Below the pieces are notes generated by a model. The model was not told where the DNA came from. It saw nothing but the letters and a program-made list of their open reading frames with translations, and made no database searches. Shown here piece after piece: positions 3,465-33,901 of a stretch of 36,606 nt of DNA (positions are counted from its first letter, which is position 1; every line of letters begins with the position of its first letter). Source of the stretch: Candidatus Peribacteraceae bacterium (GTDB lineage: Bacteria; Patescibacteriota; Gracilibacteria; JAHISY01). The DNA lies in NCBI GenBank assembly GCA_021734705.1, contig JAIPIJ010000004.1:1-36606 (forward strand), written 5' to 3'. The position numbers and the translations under genes were made by a program.

Positions 3465-6400
3465 CTATTCTAAATGCTCGACTTCCCGAATCTCTTTTTC
3501 ATTTTCGAGCGCGTTGTAAAAAATCGGCACCATCACCAGAGTCAGGACCGTCGCGAAGATGATTCCGAAGAAAATTGATAGTGCCAGGTCAATCCACATC
3601 TCATCGGCCCACACTAGTGGCAAGACTCCACAAGCTGTCGTAACCGTCGTGAGGATAATTGGCTGTAGGCGGTCGCCGGCCGAGCTGACAATTGCCTCAA
3701 GTTTTTCCATACCATCACGGATCTTGTTATTAATCCGGTCGATCAAAACAATCGCGTCGTTCACAACGACACCCAGTAGCGCGACAATGCCTATGAAACC
3801 CGGGAAAGAAAAATTACGCCCCAGTAGTGTCAGTCCGGTAAACACACCAATCAGAGCTAGTGGCAGGGTAAAAGTAATGATGAAAGGCTGGCGGTAGGAA
3901 TTGAACTGCAAAACTAAAATCAAGACGATCAGGAAGAGCCCGAAGATCATGGCTTGGCCCAGCGAAGCAAAAGACTCAGTCACGTCCTCCGTCTCACCAC
4001 CCAGCTCGATTCGCACAGCGTCTGGAATCTCCATCTGATTTACTTGGGCGAGAATCTCGGCAGAGATTTCACTAGCTAGGAAGCCCTCTTCGACATAAGC
4101 CGTAGCACTCACAATCGTCTCAGTATCGCGGTGGTGAATCGCTGTGACAGCTGGATTCAGCTCAATCGTTGCCAACTCGGAAACCGGCACTAGGCCTTTG
4201 GGTGTCGAGATCAACAAGTTTTGAATTTGGGAAATATCGCGCGGCGAATTCCGACAGATAGTAATTTTGTCGCGCCGCTCAATCAAAGTAGTTTCTAAAT
4301 CATTCTTACAGTCTTCTGTGCGGAAATCGAGCGAAACCACTATCGGAGTTTCCTCACCACTACGTAGGATTTTGACCGAATCGTTGCCGAAAACAGCCGA
4401 GCGTAAGTCACCCGCTACGCTCGCGGCTGACACTCCGTAGAAATTTAAGCGGTCGCGCTTGAGCTTAAAGTGAAATTCACCCGTACCGTGTTCGATATTA
4501 TTATCAACATCGCGTGTCCCTTCGATTGATTCAATGACCTGTGTGAGATCTGACGCGACCCGTTCAAGCTCAGCGATGTTTTCTCCGATCACCCGTAGCT
4601 CAACCGGAGCGCCAGTCGGCGGACCAGCCTCGATTTCAGAGACCTCGACATCCGCCTCAGTGATTGATCTAACTTCATCACGCATCTGGTCTGCGATCTC
4701 CCAGCTTTTTAGCATCCGCTCGCTTTCGTCGAGCAGATTAACAGTAATCGAGGCCTTGTTGGATCCACTTGCAGAACTAGAAAAAATCGAAAGGCCAGAA
4801 GAGGTGCCACCGAGAATAGTCACGAAATTATCTACCTCCGGCAACTTCATCACCATCTGCTCAACGGTATCGACAGTTTTAGCTGTCTCTTCCAGCACAG
4901 TCCCAACCGGACGCTCAATATTGACCGTGAAGAATTCAAAATCAACCGACGGGAACATCTGGACTTTGAGAATGCCGATAATCGGAAAAGTGACCGTCAC
5001 CAACGAAGCGATGATCATTCCGATGATCCAGCTGCGGCGCCTTTTCTTCGAGCTTAAAATTCGGCGGATCTTGACTAGGTACCATCTCCGCAGAGGATTA
5101 ATCCAGCGGCTCAAAATCGGGTCTTTATCTTTCTTGTGTTCGGGTCGTTTGTGGTAATCCCGAAAAACTCGCGCCGCTATCGCCGACAATATAAAAAGTG
5201 CAATAAAGAGCGAAGACAGCAATGTAATCGAAACCGTAATCGGGATATGTTTGACGAATTCACCCATGATGCCAGTCATCATCGCCATCGGGATGAAGAC
5301 CGCAACAGTCGTCAAAGTACCCGAGATTAGCGGAGCCCGGTAGGTTTTGATCGCCAAAAGTGCGGCCTCCCGCCCACTCAAATTTTTAGTCTTCACTCCC
5401 TCGTAAACCCCTTCCATTATCACGATTGAAGTGTCGACCACCAAGCCGAGAGACAGCACTAATGAAAAAAGTACTAGGTCATTGAGAGTCTCTCCGGCAA
5501 AGCGCAGGAATATAAAAGAGATCAGAAAAATCAGCGGGATAGAGAAACCAACCATCAAACCCTCTTTGAGCCCCAGCGCCAAAAAGAGCACGATAAAGAT
5601 AATCGCAATGGTCTGAGCGCCACTACGGCCTAGCGTCGTAACACTCTCGTAGATATATTTGGACCAGTCGTTGGTGATCAAGATCTCCGCAGAAGGCGGC
5701 AGCTTCTCTTTTCGGAAATTCTCAGCTGAATCTTTAACTTCTTCGGCAATCTCGATGATGTTGGCGCCAGTTTTTTTCTTGACCTGCAGGGTAACCGAAT
5801 CTCGAAAGGTCTGGTCATCAAAGGTGTAAACGCGAGCATCACTGCTTTTTTCGGCAAAAACTTCGCGGACTTCAGCAACATCCCTGAGGAGAATGTTTTG
5901 GCCACCGAGTGAAGCGATCGGCAAATCAAGCAATTCATCGGCCGAAGCGAATTGGCCTTTGAGCGAAGCCGTGTAGTAAAAATCATTAACCAGCAGCGAG
6001 CCGATCGGCGAATCAATATGATTAGCTGAAATCGCTGAGACGATTGAGGAAAGTGAAAGGCTGTAGCCCTCCAGCTTTTGAATATCGACAATCACCTGAA
6101 CTTCCTCATTCTGAATACCGGAGAGCAAAACTTCCGAGACTCCCGCAATCGCTTCTAGCTCGTCCTGTAAATCCTCACCAAAATTTTTGAGGTCGCGCGG
6201 TGGCAGGTTCGAGAGGATCGAAACGGTGATAATCGGCTGATCGTCAATGCGAATCTCGGTCACGACCGGATCAGTCGCATCTTCGGGCAAATCCGATTTG
6301 GCGGTCTCGACTTCATCACGCAAATCCCGAATCGACTCTTCGAGATCGGCGTCGGCCTCAAACTCGACTGAGATCGAGCTGATGCCCTCCCGGGAAGCCG

Positions 6401-6683
6401 AAGTCAGCTCTTCTAAGTTTTCGAGGTTCTGCAGCTTCTCCTCCATCCGGTCTGTCACCAGCTTCTCGATGTCTGCTGGTGAAGCGCCCGGATAGGCCGT
6501 CGTCACCATCGCAAACGGAATCTTGACCTCTGGATCAGACTCCAGCGGAAGGCTGAAAAGTGAGAATAGCCCAAAAGTAAAGAGTGTGATGATCACAAGC
6601 ATGGCAACCCGCCAGTTATTCACGAAAAAGCCCCAAAACGATTCGCTAGTTTTCGCGATGGCTTTTTCTTCTTGCGGGGTCAA
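3465..6683 (-). CDS. RND-family efflux transporter (AcrB/HAE-type)
   Basis: Proton-driven inner-membrane pump subunit of 1072 residues, close to normal family length. It has the internal duplication of RND proteins: one TM helix near residues 24-48, a large extracytoplasmic loop, TM bundles around residues 340-500 and 880-1060, and a second large loop between. The helix-4 motif is GLVVDTSIVIMEG: one Asp is kept where AcrB has Asp-Asp. The helix-10 motif is GVVVNDAIVLID, with Asn where AcrB has its relay Lys. This pattern is common in non-AcrB RND branches. The start codon is TTG; no in-frame ATG gives a better N-terminus. It lies downstream of the membrane-fusion gene in the same direction. 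No outer-membrane factor gene is in the window. The substrate cannot be told. Confidence 0.93.
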   Translation of the reverse strand: MTPQEEKAIAKTSESFWGFFVNNWRVAMLVIITLFTFGLFSLFSLPLESDPEVKIPFAMVTTAYPGASPADIEKLVTDRMEEKLQNLENLEELTSASREGISSISVEFEADADLEESIRDLRDEVETAKSDLPEDATDPVVTEIRIDDQPIITVSILSNLPPRDLKNFGEDLQDELEAIAGVSEVLLSGIQNEEVQVIVDIQKLEGYSLSLSSIVSAISANHIDSPIGSLLVNDFYYTASLKGQFASADELLDLPIASLGGQNILLRDVAEVREVFAEKSSDARVYTFDDQTFRDSVTLQVKKKTGANIIEIAEEVKDSAENFRKEKLPPSAEILITNDWSKYIYESVTTLGRSGAQTIAIIFIVLFLALGLKEGLMVGFSIPLIFLISFIFLRFAGETLNDLVLFSLVLSLGLVVDTSIVIMEGVYEGVKTKNLSGREAALLAIKTYRAPLISGTLTTVAVFIPMAMMTGIMGEFVKHIPITVSITLLSSLFIALFILSAIAARVFRDYHKRPEHKKDKDPILSRWINPLRRWYLVKIRRILSSKKRRRSWIIGMIIASLVTVTFPIIGILKVQMFPSVDFEFFTVNIERPVGTVLEETAKTVDTVEQMVMKLPEVDNFVTILGGTSSGLSIFSSSASGSNKASITVNLLDESERMLKSWEIADQMRDEVRSITEADVEVSEIEAGPPTGAPVELRVIGENIAELERVASDLTQVIESIEGTRDVDNNIEHGTGEFHFKLKRDRLNFYGVSAASVAGDLRSAVFGNDSVKILRSGEETPIVVSLDFRTEDCKNDLETTLIERRDKITICRNSPRDISQIQNLLISTPKGLVPVSELATIELNPAVTAIHHRDTETIVSATAYVEEGFLASEISAEILAQVNQMEIPDAVRIELGGETEDVTESFASLGQAMIFGLFLIVLILVLQFNSYRQPFIITFTLPLALIGVFTGLTLLGRNFSFPGFIGIVALLGVVVNDAIVLIDRINNKIRDGMEKLEAIVSSAGDRLQPIILTTVTTACGVLPLVWADEMWIDLALSIFFGIIFATVLTLVMVPIFYNALENEKEIREVEHLE

Positions 6684-6685
6684 AT

Positions 6686-6759
6686 TAGTTGCTGGTTACT
6701 AGTTGCTAGTTGCTGGTAGCCAATGCCGCAATTCTCCAATTGCACATTGCACGTTGAAA
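6686..6759. repeat. Heptamer-period repeats between the two pump genes
   Basis: Five units (TAGTTGC, TGGTTAC, TAGTTGC, TAGTTGC, TGGTAGC) are followed by a second set with a different consensus (ATTGCAC, ATTGCAC, GTTGAAA). Almost the entire 77-bp spacer is made of these repeats, so it holds no visible promoter or Shine-Dalgarno for the downstream transporter. Confidence 0.75.
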
Positions 6760-6760
6760 A

Positions 6761-8512
6761 TTAATTAACGACTTCGATCGCAATCTCGTCTTTAGCTTCG
6801 TCAAGTACGCGACCACCTTCGACAATCACCTCTTCGCCCATCTCAAGTCCGCTGATAATTTCAACGTACTCCCCTTCTAAAGCGCCAAGTATGATCGGCC
6901 GCTTAAGCGCTTGGCCGTCTTCGACCACCCAAATGAAATTACCCGAAGCCAAAATATTAATCGCCGTAAGTGGAAGAAAAATACGCTTATCGTTCTCGGA
7001 ATTGCCTTCGCCAATCTGGAAACGCAATTTTACGAATTCTCCCGGTTGGAGATAGGGGTTCTGGTGGTAAATTTCGACAGCGTATTTCTTGGTTACTGGG
7101 TCGGCCGAAGGGGCAATTGATGCAATCACGTCAGAACTTCTGGTAGCAATCTTGACTTCGTCTCCGACGTGGACCTTACGGACTTCGGCAGCCGAGAGAT
7201 AGGCGACAATTTTGAGCTGCGAAGCATCCTCCACTCGGACCAGCGTCGCCCCAGCCGCAATCTCATCACCCGCTTCGACTTCGACCGCCGTCACTTTGCC
7301 GGTGAAAGGTGCTCGAATCGTGAGCTTCGATACAGAAATTTGAGCCTGGTTCAGGTTGCCAGCAATAGAATTCAGCGAGGCTGCCGCTGAAGTTTTTGAA
7401 AGTTCGGCAGATTTTTGCGCCGATTCGAGCGCCGCCTTGGCTGACTCGACTGCCTGGCGGGCTGATTGCTCATTGGCGGAAAGTTGGGCCAGCGTGGCAG
7501 CGTAATTCGCTTCAGCCGAAAGCACTGATTGGGAAGTTCCGTTCGAATTTTGGGCAGCTGAATCCAGTGCCGCTTTGGCTGAATCCAGAGTCGAGATCGC
7601 TGTCCGAACAGTCGAGATTTGGGTATTGATTATCGAGATATCGGAATTCAAAGTAGTCTGCGTATAATCTGAACCGACGTTTGAATTATTAAGCACATCG
7701 AGTGTCTTGATTGCAGCATTCTCCGCTAACTCCAATAATTTCCGGGCCGAATCGTAATCCGTCGGAGAAGTATTCAGAGCGATCAGCGCTGTTTCAATCG
7801 CATTTTCTGCAATTGGCTTGGACGCGGACTTAAAGGCACCAAGCAAATATTCGTAATCATCATTCGCATTCTTATTAATTGGCGAAACACCGATGATCTC
7901 GTCACAATCTGTCACAGCTGCATCAGCCGTCGGAGAAGCCGACCGGACTGCGTTATCGAGCGTAGTCTGCGCGGAAGAAACTGAAAGCCCACTGGAAAGC
8001 TTGGCCGCATTCAAAGTCTCTTCGGCCTGCAAACGCAAGGCTTCGTTCTGGGCCAAAGTGTTGGCAAGTGAGATTTGAGCAGTTTCGAGGCCAACCTGAG
8101 CTGATTCAACTGACTTCTCAGCCGAAAGCTGCGTTTGGGTCAGCGAATTCTGTGCATTGACGTAGGCCGCCCCAGCCGTCGAACGGCTCGAACTGACGCT
8201 GGCCGAAGATAGCTGAAGTAAAGTTTGTCCCGCCCGAACTTCAGCACCGACTTTCACGAAAACATTTTGCACGTCAGCGCGGACCTCAGAGGTCAGCGTG
8301 GCTGATTTCACGGCTTGAACTTCACCGGTTGTCGTGATCTCTCGGGAAAGGCCCGGAGCGACTATCGCCGTTTCGACCGATGGTATGTAGGTCTCATCTA
8401 CTACAGAGTCTTCTGAGTTGTCTCCGCAACCGACAGCGGTGAAAGCAAACACAATGGTAAGCCCGACTGCAGTAATCTTGCCGTAATTTCGCTTTAGAAT
8501 TTTGTAAATCAT
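6761..8512 (-). CDS. Lipoprotein membrane-fusion protein (HlyD/AcrA family) of an RND pump
   Basis: The 583-residue protein has a hydrophobic leader ending in the lipobox-like AVGC with Cys29, so it is likely lipid-anchored. A lipoyl/barrel-sandwich half follows (VEVEAGDEIAAGATLVRV-type repeats near residues 85-105 and 405-430), split by a very long Ala/Ser/Gln-rich coiled-coil hairpin (about residues 115-390). A beta-barrel and membrane-proximal domain end the protein (GALEGEYVEIISGLEMGEEVIVEGG). AcrA has about 397 residues, so the hairpin is much longer than usual. Proteins of this kind bridge an RND pump to an exit duct or the cell wall. It has its own promoter (8520-8548) and probably a leaderless mRNA. 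It is followed by the transporter gene and preceded by marR. Confidence 0.9.
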   Translation of the reverse strand: MIYKILKRNYGKITAVGLTIVFAFTAVGCGDNSEDSVVDETYIPSVETAIVAPGLSREITTTGEVQAVKSATLTSEVRADVQNVFVKVGAEVRAGQTLLQLSSASVSSSRSTAGAAYVNAQNSLTQTQLSAEKSVESAQVGLETAQISLANTLAQNEALRLQAEETLNAAKLSSGLSVSSAQTTLDNAVRSASPTADAAVTDCDEIIGVSPINKNANDDYEYLLGAFKSASKPIAENAIETALIALNTSPTDYDSARKLLELAENAAIKTLDVLNNSNVGSDYTQTTLNSDISIINTQISTVRTAISTLDSAKAALDSAAQNSNGTSQSVLSAEANYAATLAQLSANEQSARQAVESAKAALESAQKSAELSKTSAAASLNSIAGNLNQAQISVSKLTIRAPFTGKVTAVEVEAGDEIAAGATLVRVEDASQLKIVAYLSAAEVRKVHVGDEVKIATRSSDVIASIAPSADPVTKKYAVEIYHQNPYLQPGEFVKLRFQIGEGNSENDKRIFLPLTAINILASGNFIWVVEDGQALKRPIILGALEGEYVEIISGLEMGEEVIVEGGRVLDEAKDEIAIEVVN

Positions 8513-15653: not shown

Positions 15654-15728
15654 CAAGGCAAAAGGCAAAACAATCAATTCTAGATCCCATTCTCTAGAAC
15701 CTAGAACCTAAAATCTAGAACCTAAAAA
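15654..15728. repeat. Heptamer-period tandem repeats between zinc-ribbon gene and rnhB
   Basis: Starts with CAAGGCA, AAAGGCA, AAACAAT, then seven units of the CTAGAAC family: CTAGATC, CCATTCT, CTAGAAC, CTAGAAC, CTAAAAT, CTAGAAC, CTAAAAA. It fills the whole gap and supplies the TAG stop codon of rnhB on the other strand. Confidence 0.85.
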
Positions 15729-16306
15729 AGTCGTCCCTGGACCGACCAAGTCTTGAGCGGCTCGAAACTTCGGCGGTGAATTGCGGTTGGACGCAGTTTT
15801 AATAACTTTCTAATGTGGTGCAGCGTACCGTAGCCTTTGTGGTTAGCGAAAGAGTAACCTGGATACTTCTTGCCGAATTCGCACATCAGCCGATCCCGCC
15901 AGACTTTCGCCACGATTGAGGCTGCCGAAATGACTGGATAGATTGCGTCTCCTCGTACAAACTCACGCGCAGGAATTTCAAAGCGAAAACGATCACAACC
16001 ATCCACCCAGATTTCTTGAGGTTGTGGATTGAGACTCTCGACAGCGACTTTCATCGCCAGATTCGTTGCTTTTTTGATTCCAATCTTGTCAATCTCTCTG
16101 GCTTCCACCTCCCCTACTCCAAAAACAGCATGGCGCTCGATTTCTATGAAAGCCTCTTCACGTTGTTTTTCGGAAAGTTTTTTGGAGTCAGCGAGAATCT
16201 TAGTTGGAAAATTCTTCGGCAAAATCACAGCCGCGGCCACTACCGGACCGGCTAGGCAACCGCGCCCGGCCTCATCCACACCGGCGATGATCTTCGCAAC
16301 TGGCAC
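15722..16306 (-). CDS. rnhB: Ribonuclease HII
   Basis: Removes ribonucleotides and RNA from RNA-DNA hybrids. The 194-residue protein has the family opening IIAGVDEAGRGCLAGPVVAAAV with the first catalytic Asp-Glu pair (DEAGRG), a later catalytic Asp in IWVDGCDRF, and ISAASIVAKVWRDRLM, then YPGYSFANHKGYGTLHH. GTG start, with TTAAAAT only 6 nt upstream, so the mRNA is probably leaderless. The last codons and stop lie in the heptamer array, which suggests the array has grown into the gene end. Confidence 0.96.
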   Translation of the reverse strand: MPVAKIIAGVDEAGRGCLAGPVVAAAVILPKNFPTKILADSKKLSEKQREEAFIEIERHAVFGVGEVEAREIDKIGIKKATNLAMKVAVESLNPQPQEIWVDGCDRFRFEIPAREFVRGDAIYPVISAASIVAKVWRDRLMCEFGKKYPGYSFANHKGYGTLHHIRKLLKLRPTAIHRRSFEPLKTWSVQGRLF

Positions 16307-17229: not shown

Positions 17230-18669
17230 TTACTGTTTAATAACAATCTCTCTGCCTTCTCCCATCGCCATCACTTCAGGATAATACATCTCAAGAATTT
17301 TTGACGGCAAAGCCTCGTAGATTCCCTCGATGCGTGCCAGAATAACATAATCAATCTCGTGTGTACCTGGAGTGAGACGATCGATAAAGAAACGGGCAGA
17401 ATCAAAACGGGATTCGCGATGAGAGACCACCGGACGACACCAGCCATAGCACTCATCAGAACTAATATCTACAAATTTTTCCAAAGTTCGATCAACATTA
17501 TCAAAATCAAAATTTACAATCTCCGTACCGGAAACTATGGGATCCTCCACCACCACCTGACGATGAGTAGAGTTGGAGACGATCTTTAGGCGAACGAGAT
17601 AATTTTTACCAACCTCCAACTCATCTAGCGGATGCTCAAATTCAACATCGTTCAACCCAAAAATCTCCCGCTCAATCCAAAAACCATGAGATATCGGCGC
17701 TAAATCTTTCGCTGCAAAAATCTCATGCAATTCAACATCAGCATAAAAACTCTTATCATTCGGTGAGCTTAAAGAGAACTGGTAGTTCTCATCTCGCTCC
17801 AGCGTAAAGTTTTCCTCTCTTTGATCAAGCGGATTTTGCAAAACGTCAGAAAAGTCTAGATCAGCTGAACTAATCACAAACTCAGCCGGATCATCCTCAC
17901 CCGGCAAATCTTCGTCGTAATCACCCAAAGCCATCAAGACGCGCAGCGCGGTATTACCTGAAATTCGTGATTTAGTATCAGCCAGATAACGGGCAATCTT
18001 CGGATGCAGATTGTCGCGAATATCATTCGCGATCCAGTGCTGAAATAAAATTGCAGTCAGACGCTCATTTTGCGAGTAAAAACTACGAAGGTCGGCCTCC
18101 TCTTCCCAGAAAACATAACGATCCCGGATATTCACCAAGCGATCAAGATCTTCCTCAAAGTTTTTGATAGATTTTCGAACTCCTGGCGAAAGCTGGGATT
18201 TTTTGAAAAAACCAGTCGCTCGTAAAAACCAGGCTTTTGCCTCTACTGAACGTGCTCTAGTCAGGAAAAAATCAAAATCTGAAGCTGCCAATATGCCACC
18301 ATCTCGCGCCAGCACAAAAACTCCATGCTGTCGCGTTGCGTCATCAAGGCAGAGCCAAGTTTCTTGTGGGTCACACTGATCACGCACCTCCTTGTTTAAC
18401 CAATTCCGAGCCTTAATTAAAGAAGCTTTAGAAAAACTAACTTCTTGCCACTGTGGCGCAAATTCCAGTACATTCGCTGTCAACCAGGCATTTGGTTTTG
18501 TATCATACATTTTCCAAGTATTCCAAAAGTGGAATCCGCCATTGTCATCTTGAGCGTCAATAATATATTTCAGATTTGCCTCCAAATCTGTCTGACTTGG
18601 CGGAATCGTCTCACGACCAACTTTTTCTAGTAAATTATTTTGCAAAATTAGACTAGTCCAATAACTCAA
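17230..18669 (-). CDS. Alpha-2-macroglobulin, C-terminal part after an in-frame TGA
   Basis: This 479-residue reading continues in the same frame from the alpha-2-macroglobulin N-terminal part; one TGA (18670-18672) separates them. It starts inside the thioester domain. TGA is followed at once by TTG AGT TAT, and residues such as ANLKYIIDAQDDNGGFHFW and AWLTANVLEFA are typical of the alpha/alpha toroid. The receptor-binding-like C-terminal beta domains follow (VGKNYLVRLKIVSNSTHRQVVVEDPIVSGTE; FDSARFFIDRLTPGTHEIDYVILARIEGIYEALPSKILEMYYPE). The TTG just after the stop could allow restart, but no ribosome site is seen. Either the gene is broken by a recent nonsense mutation, the TGA is read through, or the base is wrong in the assembly. 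No other frame damage is visible. Confidence 0.8.
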   Translation of the reverse strand: MSYWTSLILQNNLLEKVGRETIPPSQTDLEANLKYIIDAQDDNGGFHFWNTWKMYDTKPNAWLTANVLEFAPQWQEVSFSKASLIKARNWLNKEVRDQCDPQETWLCLDDATRQHGVFVLARDGGILAASDFDFFLTRARSVEAKAWFLRATGFFKKSQLSPGVRKSIKNFEEDLDRLVNIRDRYVFWEEEADLRSFYSQNERLTAILFQHWIANDIRDNLHPKIARYLADTKSRISGNTALRVLMALGDYDEDLPGEDDPAEFVISSADLDFSDVLQNPLDQREENFTLERDENYQFSLSSPNDKSFYADVELHEIFAAKDLAPISHGFWIEREIFGLNDVEFEHPLDELEVGKNYLVRLKIVSNSTHRQVVVEDPIVSGTEIVNFDFDNVDRTLEKFVDISSDECYGWCRPVVSHRESRFDSARFFIDRLTPGTHEIDYVILARIEGIYEALPSKILEMYYPEVMAMGEGREIVIKQ

Positions 18670-21600
18670 TCACTGTTCCGTGCAGCCGTAATTCATTTCA
18701 CGCGCCTCATTTACAAACTTCTGCAGACGATCCAACAAAGTACCAAACACTTTGAAAGTCAGGACAGATTCCAGGGCTCGCTCGTCAGACTTCACAGCCA
18801 AAGACTCCGGATCCTCGATACGGAAAAATTCTGCTGCAGTCGTCGATATTGTCGGCGGCATAATCCTGCGCTGAATCTCAACAGCATCGCGTAAGCCTGA
18901 TTCTGCTGCCTCAATTTCAAATTTCAAAGTAGTGTCTTTGCCCTCCAACGGCCAAGTAAATTTGTCACTTCGAGCAATTTCGACTGGGAAAAATATGCGT
19001 ATTTCATCCTCAACCGAAACTGTCTTCTCATATTCCTGTTTAACAAAATCCTCTGATAAAGTTAGTTTCACCTGAACTTTTTCTGATTTTGGTGAACCTA
19101 TATTGCGACGAATAAGTAAACCAACTTCACTCTCGTCTCCAAAACGGAAAATATTTGGCATTATCGGTGCGATCAAGAGTGGCAAACTAGTACTAAACTC
19201 ACCTTCTGTTTCGCCAAAAGCATTGTCATTCGTACTACCAATCACCCAAATGTGCCAAGTGGTGAGATTATCCGGCAACTTAAATTCAGCAACTGCTTCA
19301 CCATTTTGATCAGTCCGAATGGTGGCAATCCACTCTGCTGTATCGCGAAATTCACCACGTGGCTTCACGTCATCACCCTTACCACCACCACCGAAAGCAC
19401 TATCCATCACTGCTTTGATTTCTTCAACTTTTTCATAAATATCCTCGAGATCAGCCCGAGAAATGAAGTTTGCCAGCGTGTGTGAAGTATAAACTCCCAG
19501 CGGCAATTCTTTAAGAAATTTTTGAAATAAAGTCCCGATCTGATCACGCGAGCGCAGAGCCAGCAAGGTCTGATCGACAACAGCAACCGTCAGTTCAGCG
19601 GAAACCGGCTGACCGTCTTTCGCTGTTTTTAAAAACAACTTAACTGTATCTTGCGGTTGGTAGTCGTTTTTTTCCGGTTGCACAGAAATATCTAGCTCGT
19701 GATTCGGATCGTAAATCGGTATATTGATCGCTCCAAATTTCACCTTCGGAGAACCTTTCTCATCCCTACCTTCCAACACAATTGAGACAATCACATTTGG
19801 CGCCATCCAAGATTCGACCGGAAAGGAAACTGTCTGATCCGCAATATCCGGCGTCAGTGTTTCCAAAACTTTACCGCGCTCAAGCGTCACATGCGCCCGA
19901 TCAATTTCCCACTCGGTATGCGGAAAAAGCACAGTCGCCATCTCACCAATCTGGTATTCATCTTTCTCGACGAAAGGAACAAAAGTTTTATTTTCTGGGT
20001 TCTGCTGCATGGTAAATTCATCGCGCCGACTCGTCCAAATGTAAAAATTCTCTTCGGCTACAGCCGAACGTTTTTTAGGGTCATAAGAAGTCACGCGAAG
20101 AATATATTCTCCCGAATCCTCCGGACGCAGAAAACTACTAGAAAACTGACCACGCTCGTCTGAGCTGATATCAATCTTCCTAATCACTTCCTCAACCGCA
20201 TGCCACTCAGAGCTGTAGTCGCCGACAGCATCTTTACGATCATTACGCACCCATTTTTTACGAATTAGCTCTGCTTCAAGGCTCTTTTTCAGAGCATTGC
20301 CAGACAAATCCTCCAGCGTACCCGAAAACTCAATTTCGCTCTCGTTCTGACCAAAGAAATAAGGTAGGCGCCTCAATTCAACCTGCTCAGTAGAAACAAA
20401 GAAAGGAATCGACACTGTCGTGCTGGAAGAATCTCCCTGAGCTGCTTCTACCGTTAAATCCAGATTAAGTAGATCCCAGTCAATGTTTTCTTCATCCAGC
20501 TCAAAGTCGAGATCAACCGGAATAATAAACTCGCCATCCTTATTTAAAACACCCGAACCATTTAGAATCACCCGATCCTGCTTGTCAGGAGATCCCCACC
20601 ACCACTGTATGGGTTTGTAACCGAAAAGCGAGACTGTATAGTCAAAAGACTTACCTGCCAAAGCACCACCGAAAGCATATTCAGAGGAAATCGTAGCCTC
20701 ACACTCATCCTGCCAAATCGCCTGCCCACAATTCCAGCTGCCATCAACCAAAAAATCCGGCTTGCGGTATTCACCGACATAAAAAATACTTTCCGCTCTG
20801 TTGCGATAATTCTCTCCATATTGTGGAAAAGTAATTTCGATATTATATTCACCAAAAACTAAATCTTCGGGAATATCCCAATAGCCGTCCAAAGAACCAC
20901 CTACAATTTGCATGTTGGTTTGAAAAACACTCTCGTGTCGCGAATCAAAAATCTCTAAATTACAACTAAATGTTTCTTTTGGATCAATTGTCTTGAGTGG
21001 AAAATCTTTTTTAAAAAAATTCGTTTCCCGGAAAATTGACTTGAAATAAATTCGATCACCCGGCTGAAACAGAGGTCTGTCGGTAAAAACCACGCCACGC
21101 ACATCAGTCTCGTATTCGTATTGATTTACATTGACCGGCAAGTCCCCATAAAGGAAACCATCCTGGAAACTACGTGAACCAATTCCGATCTTTTTTTCGG
21201 CGGTCACTGCTACTCCCCAGAAATTGTCCACTGTCGTAAATTCGGAAACATATTTCTGCAATGGTCCAAAATTAAATAATTGCCCGTCACGACCCTCCCA
21301 GGAGCTGGTAATAACTTGAATACCGTCCGGAACAATTTTCACCTTCTCACCTGGAAAACTCTGTACCAAAATCTGCACCGTTTCGTCTGCCGCCGACTTC
21401 TGCTCAACCAGAAAATCCACTACAGAGAAATTTATCAAGTACGTATCCGGAGCATAGTTATTTTTGTCATCATAAGAAAGCTTAAGTTTAAAAAATCCAG
21501 CGTAATCAGTGCCCGTGAAAAAACCCGGGAAAATACGCTCCAAGTCCAACTCCTCGATTCTCTGACGTAGATTGGAAAATTCCCAGTCAAGGCTAGCTGT

Positions 21601-22791
21601 CGCTGATTTGTATTTAGGGTACAGCCGAGTAATTGTCAGTGTGACCGGATCTATATCTCCCGAGTGTTTAACAAAAAATTTAGGCAGCTCTCCATTTTTA
21701 AATACCTTATGCGAATAAGGGAAGAAGAAAGATTCCAATCTGTTCGAAAAAAATGATTTGAAGGTGATCAGCTTATCCGCACCAAGCTGACGTCCAAATT
21801 GATCTTCAATCTCGGCCGAAACATTGAATTCATAGCCCTGTCCAGCCTGCCAACGACCACCCGGCGGGTCGAAATAAAAGTCGCTACGAGTGTCATCCTC
21901 GGCGATTTTTTCCAGTTTATCATCGATATAGGCCTCCCAAAGCTCTGCATCAATGGGTTCCAGGGTGATTTTTTTTAGAAAATCATGAGCATTCACTTGA
22001 TAGGAAAATTCTAAACGTAAAGAGCTAAAAACATCACTCGGCTCATCGATATTGATTATTTGAAATTTTTCTATCGTCGAAAAACCCTGTTTTTGATCTA
22101 CTAATGTGGGTAAATCACCCTCTTTGCCTACAGCACCTTTTGGCAAAGTTAAAGTAAAGCTCGCCTGCTCATCCCACTCAGTTTTTGGAATAAATTCAAT
22201 TATTGACTCATTGGTTTCTTTTATCATCTTTTCATTTTCCCAGCGCTCAACTTCCCCATAAGCAATATCAAAATCTTTATCCGGATCAAAACTAATTTTA
22301 TTGGCCTCAGACAAATCAATCGGCTGGTTCAAAAAAATAGTCAGTGGGGTTTGGCCTCCCAAGTTTTTTGAGTGAATATCTTCAATTTCCACACGTGGAG
22401 TATTAAAGGCATAATTAATTCCTAACTCCGGTATGTCAAATTCATAATGTGTCGAAAATTTCCAGTCTTCGCTCGGCTCAAACAAAATCCCTGTCGTGCC
22501 TAGAAGCTGCCAACTTCCTTCAATAGACGGCATAATTTCAATGTTTTTCTCTAAAAATTTTTGAGCGCTCTCTGGATTTTGCAAAGAGAAAACTGGACTA
22601 TCCCAAATGAAAGTCACTGGCGTACGACCAGCAATATCCTTTGCCTCATTCTTAGGAGAATAAAAAACTGATGCAGCTTGTTCTTTTTCAGGATTTAAAA
22701 AATCCTCTCCTTCATCTAAATCGGTCTTGCAGGCTATTAGAGTTAAAAGACACAAACCTATCAGAAACAAAAATTTGAATTTTTTGTTCAT
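18670..22791 (-). CDS. Alpha-2-macroglobulin-like lipoprotein, N-terminal part through the thioester motif
   Basis: Bacterial alpha-2-macroglobulins are envelope protease traps. The 1373-residue part begins with a lipoprotein signal (hydrophobic run ending LIAC, Cys21). It then runs through many beta-sandwich MG domains, with the conserved ELTVAVVDQTLLAL and a following FRDTAEWIATIRTDQNGEA / LPDNLTTWHIWVIGST block, and stops right after NYGCTEQ, the CxEQ thioester motif. The usual family continues for several hundred residues, and here the continuation lies in the next 1440 bp in the same frame, separated by one TGA. The full product would be about 1853 residues, somewhat longer than E. coli YfhM. 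pbpC is upstream on the same strand, the partner gene also in E. coli. The segment is visibly more AT-rich than lysS or recJ and lies inside the repeat-bounded block. Confidence 0.9.
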   Translation of the reverse strand: MNKKFKFLFLIGLCLLTLIACKTDLDEGEDFLNPEKEQAASVFYSPKNEAKDIAGRTPVTFIWDSPVFSLQNPESAQKFLEKNIEIMPSIEGSWQLLGTTGILFEPSEDWKFSTHYEFDIPELGINYAFNTPRVEIEDIHSKNLGGQTPLTIFLNQPIDLSEANKISFDPDKDFDIAYGEVERWENEKMIKETNESIIEFIPKTEWDEQASFTLTLPKGAVGKEGDLPTLVDQKQGFSTIEKFQIINIDEPSDVFSSLRLEFSYQVNAHDFLKKITLEPIDAELWEAYIDDKLEKIAEDDTRSDFYFDPPGGRWQAGQGYEFNVSAEIEDQFGRQLGADKLITFKSFFSNRLESFFFPYSHKVFKNGELPKFFVKHSGDIDPVTLTITRLYPKYKSATASLDWEFSNLRQRIEELDLERIFPGFFTGTDYAGFFKLKLSYDDKNNYAPDTYLINFSVVDFLVEQKSAADETVQILVQSFPGEKVKIVPDGIQVITSSWEGRDGQLFNFGPLQKYVSEFTTVDNFWGVAVTAEKKIGIGSRSFQDGFLYGDLPVNVNQYEYETDVRGVVFTDRPLFQPGDRIYFKSIFRETNFFKKDFPLKTIDPKETFSCNLEIFDSRHESVFQTNMQIVGGSLDGYWDIPEDLVFGEYNIEITFPQYGENYRNRAESIFYVGEYRKPDFLVDGSWNCGQAIWQDECEATISSEYAFGGALAGKSFDYTVSLFGYKPIQWWWGSPDKQDRVILNGSGVLNKDGEFIIPVDLDFELDEENIDWDLLNLDLTVEAAQGDSSSTTVSIPFFVSTEQVELRRLPYFFGQNESEIEFSGTLEDLSGNALKKSLEAELIRKKWVRNDRKDAVGDYSSEWHAVEEVIRKIDISSDERGQFSSSFLRPEDSGEYILRVTSYDPKKRSAVAEENFYIWTSRRDEFTMQQNPENKTFVPFVEKDEYQIGEMATVLFPHTEWEIDRAHVTLERGKVLETLTPDIADQTVSFPVESWMAPNVIVSIVLEGRDEKGSPKVKFGAINIPIYDPNHELDISVQPEKNDYQPQDTVKLFLKTAKDGQPVSAELTVAVVDQTLLALRSRDQIGTLFQKFLKELPLGVYTSHTLANFISRADLEDIYEKVEEIKAVMDSAFGGGGKGDDVKPRGEFRDTAEWIATIRTDQNGEAVAEFKLPDNLTTWHIWVIGSTNDNAFGETEGEFSTSLPLLIAPIMPNIFRFGDESEVGLLIRRNIGSPKSEKVQVKLTLSEDFVKQEYEKTVSVEDEIRIFFPVEIARSDKFTWPLEGKDTTLKFEIEAAESGLRDAVEIQRRIMPPTISTTAAEFFRIEDPESLAVKSDERALESVLTFKVFGTLLDRLQKFVNEAREMNYGCTEQ

Positions 22792-22950: not shown

Positions 22951-25074
22951 TCATTCCACAAGAATAGTAATCTTCGCCCGCTCATCACCAGACAACGCCA
23001 TGATTTCATGCTCTCCAAGTGTAACATCTTCAATAATATCCCCGCTCTCAACTCCATCAAACAAAATCCTCACCTCGCCAATCCCACCCCGAGTCTTCAC
23101 AGAAATCTTGGAATCCGGATGAAAACGATCACCTTCATTCGGAAAAGCAATCGCAAACTCCGGTCTTTGTGTTGTTTGCAAATCTGTCAGCTCCTCTGGC
23201 AAAAGAAACTCCACAATTTTTTCCGAACAATTTGGCATATTTTCAAAAGGACGACGGCAAATCTGCACTTCATCACGCTCAGATGAAAATTTAAAATCCG
23301 GTGGTGAAAATGGATGTAACTCACGCATAATCGCCCGCCAAAAAGGACCAGCACCCTCATTCCCAGAGCTCATGTGCATCGGCGTCCCATCAGCATTACC
23401 CACCCAAACACCCACCGTATACTCCGAAGTGCTGCCAACAGTATAATTATCTCGAAAATCTTGGCTCGTCCCTGTCTTCACTGCCACATCGAATTCCATA
23501 TCTAGCGAGCTAGAACGCGAAAAAACGCGCCAGCGTGCTTCACGATCAGATAAGGCATGTAAAATCCATTCCGCTGTTTCGAGAGAAATTTTACGCTCTG
23601 GCTCCGGAAAAAAATCCTCTGCCTGACAAATTACTGCATCATTTTCGTCACGAACTTCACTGAAAAACCTTGGACTACTTTGAATTCCCTTTTGCTGATA
23701 CATGGAAAAAGCCGAGGCTAAATCCAGCAATCTTGACTCTCCTGAACCTAACACTAGCGCCAAACCAACATCATCAGGAGATTTTTTGAAATGAAAGCCT
23801 AGATATTCTAGAAAGACGAAAAAGCGATCGATACCAATCCGATCCAGCAGAGTCACCGCTGAAATATTGTAAGAACCAGTCAGGGCCTCTCGAAAACGCA
23901 CGTGGCCATATTCCATGTTGTCGCGGTAATTCTGCGGCGCATAGGAACCATCCTCGGTTAGAAAAGATTTCCGTTCATCTATAATTTCATCTGCCGGAGA
24001 AAGACCATTCTCCAAGGCAAGAGTAAAAAGAAAAGGCTTGAGCGTCGAGCCCATCTCACGAGAAGCAGTCGTTAGATTGACATTGCCAGCGATACTCGTG
24101 TCAAAAAAATCTGTTGAACCCAGCATCGTCAAAATCTCATTTTGCTCATCCAGCACTACCGCTGAAGCGTTAGAAATATTTTTATCACTTTTTTTATCCA
24201 AATTATCCCGCGCCAGCTTCAGAACTTTTTGATGTAAACTTTTATCAACAGTCGTCTGAACTCTAATTTCTGCAGCCTGACTCACGTCACAGACAGTAGA
24301 ATTCTCTAGCTGATCTTTCACAAAAAGCACGAAGTGTGGTGCATGAATTTCAATCACTTCGTCTGGTTTGAGTGCAATCTCTTGCTGCTGCCAAAAATCC
24401 CGCTTTTCGGTCGAAATTAAACCCTGCTGCTGCCAAATGTTCAGAACCAAATCTTTACGTTCTTCAGCTTTTTCAGCATTAGCAAGCGGATTCCATGTGT
24501 CCGGTCGTGGCAGGATACCGACCAAAACCGCGCGCTCGCCCAATGTCAAAGCCTCAATATCCTTGGAAAAATAGCGCCGTGCTGCACCATCGAATCCGAC
24601 CGCGCCATTGCCGAAGTAGCTCTGCTTCGCGTAGAGCTGAAAAATCTCCCCCTTGCTCAAATGTGCATCTAGTCGCAGAGCCAGAAGTGCCTGGCGAAGC
24701 TTATACCACAAATCATGACGCTCATTTTCTAGAAAGTTTTGGCGAACCACCTGCATTGTAATCGTCGAAGCACCTGAAACAATATCTCGCTCGCGAACGT
24801 TCTGAATCGCCGCCCGCAGAACCGAGCTAAGGTCCACACCAAGATGTGACCGAAAATCTTGATCCTCGACTGCACTCACCCAGGATTCCAGACTAGAAAA
24901 ATCAACCCCATGAGCCTCAGCAAAAGCCTTCTCGGAAAAAAGCAGCTCCCCTTCCAGATCATAAAAAACCCACTTCTGCTCACTGACAATCTGAAGTGGT
25001 AGAGATAGCCAAACTAAAAATAGGATTAAGATAATCAGCGGAAAAATCCAAAAAAATCTTTCTTTATGCCTCAT
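22951..25074 (-). CDS. pbpC: Penicillin-binding protein 1C (bifunctional transglycosylase/transpeptidase)
   Basis: Peptidoglycan glycan polymerisation and cross-linking. The 707-residue protein has an N-terminal membrane anchor (residues 8-27). The GT51 domain has catalytic Glu70 in EDQDFRSHLGVD and GASTITMQ (101-108). The transpeptidase domain has the SxxK motif STLK (343-346), SYN (401-403) and KTGTS (533-537). A C-terminal PBP1C-type beta domain follows (FPNEGDRFHPDSKISVKT...GEHEIMALSGD). All active-site motifs are intact. A TGTTAAAAT box stands 7 nt before the ATG. The alpha-2-macroglobulin gene follows after 159 bp, as in the E. coli pbpC-yfhM pair. It is inside the repeat-bounded block. 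Confidence 0.95.
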   Translation of the reverse strand: MRHKERFFWIFPLIILILFLVWLSLPLQIVSEQKWVFYDLEGELLFSEKAFAEAHGVDFSSLESWVSAVEDQDFRSHLGVDLSSVLRAAIQNVRERDIVSGASTITMQVVRQNFLENERHDLWYKLRQALLALRLDAHLSKGEIFQLYAKQSYFGNGAVGFDGAARRYFSKDIEALTLGERAVLVGILPRPDTWNPLANAEKAEERKDLVLNIWQQQGLISTEKRDFWQQQEIALKPDEVIEIHAPHFVLFVKDQLENSTVCDVSQAAEIRVQTTVDKSLHQKVLKLARDNLDKKSDKNISNASAVVLDEQNEILTMLGSTDFFDTSIAGNVNLTTASREMGSTLKPFLFTLALENGLSPADEIIDERKSFLTEDGSYAPQNYRDNMEYGHVRFREALTGSYNISAVTLLDRIGIDRFFVFLEYLGFHFKKSPDDVGLALVLGSGESRLLDLASAFSMYQQKGIQSSPRFFSEVRDENDAVICQAEDFFPEPERKISLETAEWILHALSDREARWRVFSRSSSLDMEFDVAVKTGTSQDFRDNYTVGSTSEYTVGVWVGNADGTPMHMSSGNEGAGPFWRAIMRELHPFSPPDFKFSSERDEVQICRRPFENMPNCSEKIVEFLLPEELTDLQTTQRPEFAIAFPNEGDRFHPDSKISVKTRGGIGEVRILFDGVESGDIIEDVTLGEHEIMALSGDERAKITILVE

Positions 25075-33310: not shown

Positions 33311-33901
33311 ATGTTTGCTCGGCGCAAAAAAAGTTTCGAGACTCGAATGGCCTGGATGCTCTCCGGGTTGGCTTTCTTCGCTGTGATGAGCGCCTATGCC
33401 ATCGTGAAACTCGAAGCAACGATGAACCGGCCACGAGAACTGCCGCTCGAGAACATCAACGCAATCGAAAATTTCACAGCCCCCCTGCCGACTCCGACAG
33501 CTACAGAAAATCCAGCCACGGTCAAAGAAGCTGAACCGACGGACGCAGAAAATTGGGCAACTGCCGAGGCGACACTGGTAGATTTCTTTGCTGAAATCAA
33601 TGCTGGCAACTACGCTGCCGCGGCTGCAATCCGCACGCCCGAGTACCTCATCGGCACACCAGAGGCCTATGCCACACAGCTGCAGAATTCGATGGAGAAC
33701 GATATTTCTGGAAAGTTGAAAATTACAAATATTGAACGCATACCCGAAGAAAGTAAATTGACCACCAAATACTTCCGCTTTCAGAAAGATGCTGTTTGGT
33801 CTTTCGATGGCTCCACCCATTCGGAAATCCGCAAAGCCGCACTCGTACTGCGCGACGGTAAATGGACGATTGATTTCTTTGAAGTCGAGCGGAAGTTCTA
33901 A
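33311..33901 (+). CDS. Membrane-anchored protein with NTF2-like extracytoplasmic domain
   Basis: A 196-residue protein with a basic N-terminus, one membrane segment (WMLSGLAFFAVMSAYAIV, about residues 15-32), a Pro/Thr/Glu-rich linker (about 45-78), and a C-terminal alpha+beta domain (WATAEATLVDFFAEINAGNYAAAA... to LRDGKWTIDFFEVERKF) that looks like the NTF2/DUF4878 fold. Function is unknown; such domains often bind small ligands or partners outside the cell. A TAAAAT box inside the end of the transketolase gene stands 12 nt upstream. Its stop overlaps the convergent glycosyltransferase by 4 nt. Confidence 0.72.
   Translation: MFARRKKSFETRMAWMLSGLAFFAVMSAYAIVKLEATMNRPRELPLENINAIENFTAPLPTPTATENPATVKEAEPTDAENWATAEATLVDFFAEINAGNYAAAAAIRTPEYLIGTPEAYATQLQNSMENDISGKLKITNIERIPEESKLTTKYFRFQKDAVWSFDGSTHSEIRKAALVLRDGKWTIDFFEVERKF

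Follow-up and report, generated by a model that had tools for sequence, protein, structure and literature searches.

Several systems bear on the meaning of a TGA codon within an open reading frame. Recoding of in-frame TGA is known for BD1-5 and SR1, and some Gracilibacteria outside the recoded order use the standard code, with RF2 present and the UCA tRNA absent (PMC8629427). In E. coli, TGA is the leakiest of the stop codons and its commonest misreading is as Trp; a T following the TGA raises the accuracy of termination (PMC11126739). UGA can be read by a tRNA-Trp whose anticodon stem is 4 bp long, and the Hirsh suppressor is a G24A variant (PMC13092985). In alpha-2-macroglobulin (A2M), the interface that the TED forms with the C-terminal domain normally keeps the thioester shielded (PMC4498604).

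Here, we analyzed an A2M gene of Candidatus Peribacteraceae bacterium, in which a TGA directly follows the thioester motif. Everything points to this TGA being an ordinary one, owing to a recent point mutation or to an assembly base error, and to no new kind of decoding.

Results

A single in-frame TGA follows the thioester motif of A2M

The window is one whole contig (JAIPIJ010000004.1) of 36,606 nucleotides; the assembly is 854 kb in size, consists of 51 contigs and is 85% complete. As identified by ORF, Pfam and structure alignment, the window contains an A2M frame of YfhM type at positions 17230–22791. The frame is on the minus strand, like all of its parts described below; it is 1853 codons in length, starting with ATG at 22791 and ending with TAA at 17230. 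It contains exactly one internal stop, the TGA at residue 1374 (positions 18670–18672), which is preceded by N-Y-G-C-T-E-Q, followed by L-S-Y-W and has T as the next base. An earlier sequence-only reading had described this TGA as free of frameshifts on either side and followed by more than 470 further good codons; both statements hold, and we counted 479. Translation and alignment place the C-T-E-Q thioester motif at residues 1370–1373 (18673–18684). Cys1370, Glu1372 and Gln1373 are invariant across the 8-sequence A2M alignment.

The TGA divides the frame into two parts. The upstream ORF (18670–22791) is 1373 residues in size; it contains a lipoprotein signal (LTLIAC) and the MG, bait-region and A2M domains, and it ends at the thioester Gln. 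The downstream open frame (17230–18669) runs for 479 codons from a TTG that abuts the TGA and covers the rest of the TED and the C-terminal MG domain. At the local base composition, the probability that 479 random codons stay open is ∼1e-12. With the TGA read through, the MG2, bait-region, A2M and bMG10 domains all exceed the curated Pfam cut-offs, supporting the A2M identity of the whole frame, and the order of the domains (MG, bait-region, A2M, TED and C-terminal MG) is as in bacterial A2M. The read-through protein also aligns to E. coli YfhM structures both before and after the stop. The Pfam match to the TED extends across the stop (residues 1348–1470, positions 18382–18750), and the bMG10 domain (residues 1703–1839, positions 17275–17685) lies entirely 3′ of it. 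The break is therefore located within the TED fold, and the premature TGA removes the TED remainder together with the C-terminal domain; the first piece ends with the thioester and lacks the rest of its domain, as had been proposed from the sequence.

TGA is an ordinary stop codon in this genome

The occurrence of in-frame TGAs in other families of the class made it necessary to test the decoding of TGA. In lysS, the number of in-frame TGAs in other families of the class reaches 32; genomes with 1 to 32 of them are G014, G016, G018, G025, G027, G034, G036, G043, G044, G050, G051, G057 and G058. These 13 genomes represent TGA-recoded lineages that belong to the same class as the studied genome.

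In the studied genome, lysS, pbpC and rnhB contain no in-frame TGA. We performed a stop-codon census over stretches totalling 231 kb, window included, in which TGA is the terminator of 35 of the 166 genes called. Within the window, it terminates gap, pbpC, a 602-aa gene and an ornithine/DAP-decarboxylase-like gene, in agreement with the earlier claim that TGA is a true stop elsewhere in the window. When in-frame pairs of long open stretches were inspected in the 231 kb, A2M was the only called gene split by TGA; of the three other cases, one was antisense to a called gene, one was located between two such genes and one immediately preceded a gene start. RF1 (353 aa) and an RF2-type factor (362 aa, with the SPF motif) are both intact. 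None of the 33 tRNA matches in this 85%-complete genome has a UCA anticodon. No tRNA-Sec scored over the cut-off, and the weak matches coincide with loci also found by the ordinary tRNA model. TGA is thus an ordinary stop codon in the studied genome, which does not look TGA-recoded.

Relatives have a sense codon at the position of the TGA

A single-sequence search of the genome contigs gave no A2M relatives, whereas an alignment query gave 70. The closest named records among the A2M relatives are those of Gracilibacteria and Patescibacteria, followed by Peribacteria. Judging from these names and from the TGA-recoded families in its class, the bacterium most likely belongs to the class Gracilibacteria within the candidate phyla radiation. 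In 60 genomes of the class and 20 of another family (f7), no internal stop is present in any A2M match outside family f14, the studied A2M alone having its one TGA. Family f14 is TGA-recoded; its weak A2M matches, in G036 and G058, show 6–7 TGAs.

In the close orthologues, the residue after CxEQ is R in six cases and otherwise K, L, M or T; in 25 distinct wider relatives, it is T (15), R (6), I (2), L (1) or V (1). Several of the orthologue codons are one substitution away from TGA. Neither Gly nor Cys was found at this column in any of the orthologues compared. The orthologue comparison suggested by the sequence-only reading as a check therefore gives a sense codon in the relatives, and never a stop outside the TGA-recoded lineages. 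As no orthologue carries a stop at this column, there is no conserved recoding. That the stop adjoins CxEQ is probably coincidental, and nothing that we found lends its position functional meaning. In the closest orthologue, the A2M of G041 (L003), C-T-E-Q is kept and L-F replaces the preceding Y-G.

Constraint is undiminished downstream of the TGA

At the positions that are invariant in seven relatives, the studied A2M keeps 146 of 152 residues (96.1%) before the stop and 69 of 72 (95.8%) after it. For the positions conserved in the 6-of-7 set, Fisher's test of before versus after the stop gives p = 0.74. The studied A2M and its closest orthologue are 44% identical before the stop and 47.5% identical after it; compared to the latter value, the two nearest orthologues are 43.7% identical to each other. 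Neither the conservation counts nor inspection of the whole 1853-codon frame revealed relaxed constraint or further lesions after the TGA. Since the constraint is undiminished, the TGA must be very young, read through or not real; if the gene is a pseudogene, the lack of relaxed constraint and of extra lesions makes it a very young one. About 4.2% of random point changes downstream of the TGA would create another stop. From the absence of other lesions, the neutral divergence since the TGA is bounded at roughly 1.5–5%, depending on the assumed indel rate.

The A2M-pbpC module and other features of the window

The upstream partner of A2M, found by gene search, is pbpC (22951–25074, minus strand), which encodes penicillin-binding protein 1C and is intact. 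The same pbpC-A2M order is present in G032. A2M is 46% identical to its counterparts in the f7 genomes and 27–28% identical to those in congeners; for pbpC, the corresponding values are 49–50% and 37%. The GC content is 0.39–0.46 across A2M-pbpC, versus 0.44–0.55 elsewhere in the window. The contig itself belongs to the genus, as its lysS is 84% identical to that of a same-genus genome. A2M-pbpC probably represents an alternative module that was acquired or is ancient; horizontal transfer or differential loss is the likely explanation.

For rnhB (RNase HII, 15722–16306), no counterpart was detected in four congeners or in a same-family genome; matches, of up to 54%, come from other families only. 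An RND permease and its periplasmic adaptor adjoin each other at 3465–8512. The radiation that includes this bacterium is usually thought to have no outer membrane.

In 12 of the 20 window genes (background 8%), a TAAAAT-like −10 box precedes the start codon by ∼11–20 nt; these genes include MFP (8512, minus strand), recJ (12533, plus), gap (15255, minus), rnhB (16306, minus), pbpC (25074, minus), tkt (32382, plus) and the gene at 33311 (plus). Hardly any window gene has a Shine-Dalgarno sequence at a usable distance. For a larger gene set, whose starts were called mechanically, the −10 signal is weaker (16/131 versus 5/131). These observations suggest that leaderless mRNAs are widespread in the lineage.

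Discussion

We lean towards one recent nonsense substitution, by which A2M would have been truncated and deprived of a working thioester domain. A very recent point substitution would have made TGA from a sense codon at a poorly conserved position. RF2 would then stop the ribosomes at this TGA, and the product would be a lipoprotein anchored in the membrane, with the thioester glutamine as the last of its 1373 residues. Such a protein would lack nearly all of the TED and also the C-terminal domain that shields the thioester; covalent protease trapping should therefore be lost. In favour of the nonsense substitution, the TGA is the only lesion in the frame, and both release factors are intact. 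The lesion would have to be young, as constraint is not relaxed after the stop, although functional readthrough would likewise leave downstream constraint unchanged. The intact state of the partner gene pbpC argues against the substitution. It is inferred that the population really carries this base, that ribosomes terminate efficiently at the TGA and that the shortened protein is no protease trap. If the mutation is real, gene loss has been caught at its first step, in a module that looks foreign to the genus.

A lesser but substantial possibility is that the base is wrong and the real gene is intact, through a consensus or assembly error, or through the choice of a minority-strain base by the assembler. 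The genome is metagenome-assembled, fragmented and incomplete, as its size, contig number and completeness attest. A single substitution as the sole lesion, the untouched constraint downstream and the intact pbpC would all be expected of such an error. In a DNA search of five genus genomes, only the studied genome matched, and the site was found to have neither a second copy nor a near relative. However, no further long gene is interrupted by TGA within the 231 kb; the assembly is thus not error-ridden in general. Recent nonsense mutation and assembly error, both named as options by the sequence-only reading, each fit all the evidence.

Low-level readthrough appears unlikely. According to this explanation, the near-cognate tRNA-Trp decodes the TGA in a minority of passes, and a little full-length A2M is made, so that the downstream part stays selected. 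The intact constraint after the stop is compatible with it, as is the leakiness of TGA in E. coli, where the misreading is mostly as Trp (PMC11126739). The tRNA-Trp of the studied genome has the D-stem pair U11-A24, in which A24 is the base also found in the Hirsh suppressor (PMC13092985). However, the anticodon stem of this tRNA-Trp is of the normal length of 5 bp, and its sequence does not differ from that in the congener G004; in addition, U11-A24 is common to most other class members recovered. The pair is therefore a background property, and a specialized tRNA-Trp was rejected. The stop context, TGA-T with T-rich sequence after it, is unfavourable to readthrough (PMC11126739), and the stop is conserved in no orthologue. 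A small stem (ATTGGA/TCTAAT) had been proposed to favour readthrough. The repeat does begin 7 nt 3′ of the TGA, but this region forms no better fold than shuffled sequence does; no significant fold was found around the TGA (z = 0.22, −0.54 and −0.65), and hairpin-driven readthrough was rejected with these near-zero scores. Hairpin, stop context and tRNAs thus give the readthrough option no positive support, whereas the downstream constraint agrees with it. The A2M TGA may undergo basal misreading as Trp; for a programmed event, there is no support. We give very little credence to the stronger form, according to which the Hirsh-type (U11-A24) tRNA-Trp routinely decodes the UGA often enough to be of use. 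The cell, which has the standard code and belongs to a class that is recoded elsewhere, would then make two forms of A2M, one containing the thioester domain and one lacking it.

Termination followed by reinitiation at the abutting TTG, with a two-piece A2M as the product, is very improbable. The in-frame TTG immediately 3′ of the TGA does open the 479-codon frame, but neither a Shine-Dalgarno sequence nor a promoter-like −10 box precedes it; 16S rRNA, for the anti-Shine-Dalgarno, is absent from the assembly. The second piece has no signal peptide, as is seen directly in its sequence (MSYWTSLILQNNLLEKVGRETIPPSQ), whereas the first piece is exported; the two would therefore not meet. Moreover, the break lies inside the TED fold, and no A2M among the relatives is split at the same point; the A2M fragments of G002, G062 and G063 stop where a contig ends or close to that point. 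The restart option of the sequence-only reading is thus disfavoured.

Full or ambiguous sense decoding of TGA (as Gly, like in BD1-5/SR1, or as Trp or Sec) is hardly credible: several families of the class do hold many in-frame TGAs, but here Gly and Trp recoding fail on the intact RF2, the absence of a UCA anticodon among the recovered tRNAs, the regular use of TGA as terminator and the TGA-free lysS, pbpC and rnhB, and selenocysteine fails on the lack of a tRNA-Sec over the cut-off and of Cys in the column of relatives, where Gly is missing as well.

In a class with TGA-recoding members, an in-frame TGA is easily over-read as recoding or readthrough, which annotators should bear in mind; genome-wide controls mark the A2M TGA as a plain stop.

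Compared to known systems, the studied gene resembles single-lesion bacterial pseudogenes caused by recent nonsense mutation, in having one stop, an otherwise intact frame and constraint that is not yet relaxed; different from them, its stop looks, at the level of the assembled sequence, the same as an assembly error. The protein resembles E. coli YfhM (ECAM; PDB 5a42, 4ziq and 4rtd) and the lipoprotein A2M 4u48 in its lipoprotein signal, its MG, bait-region, A2M, TED and C-terminal MG domains, its C-x-E-Q thioester motif and its pbpC neighbour (PMC4498604). However, the sequences are remote (profile E ∼1e-29), and only the studied gene has a stop right after CTEQ. With the BD1-5 Gracilibacteria and SR1 Absconditabacteria, which decode TGA as glycine, the studied genome shares the class in the genome collection and the presence of an in-frame TGA. 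Different from these lineages, it has kept RF2, a UCA tRNA was not found and TGA is a stop; its A2M contains one in-frame TGA, whereas genes of BD1-5 and SR1 contain several to many each.
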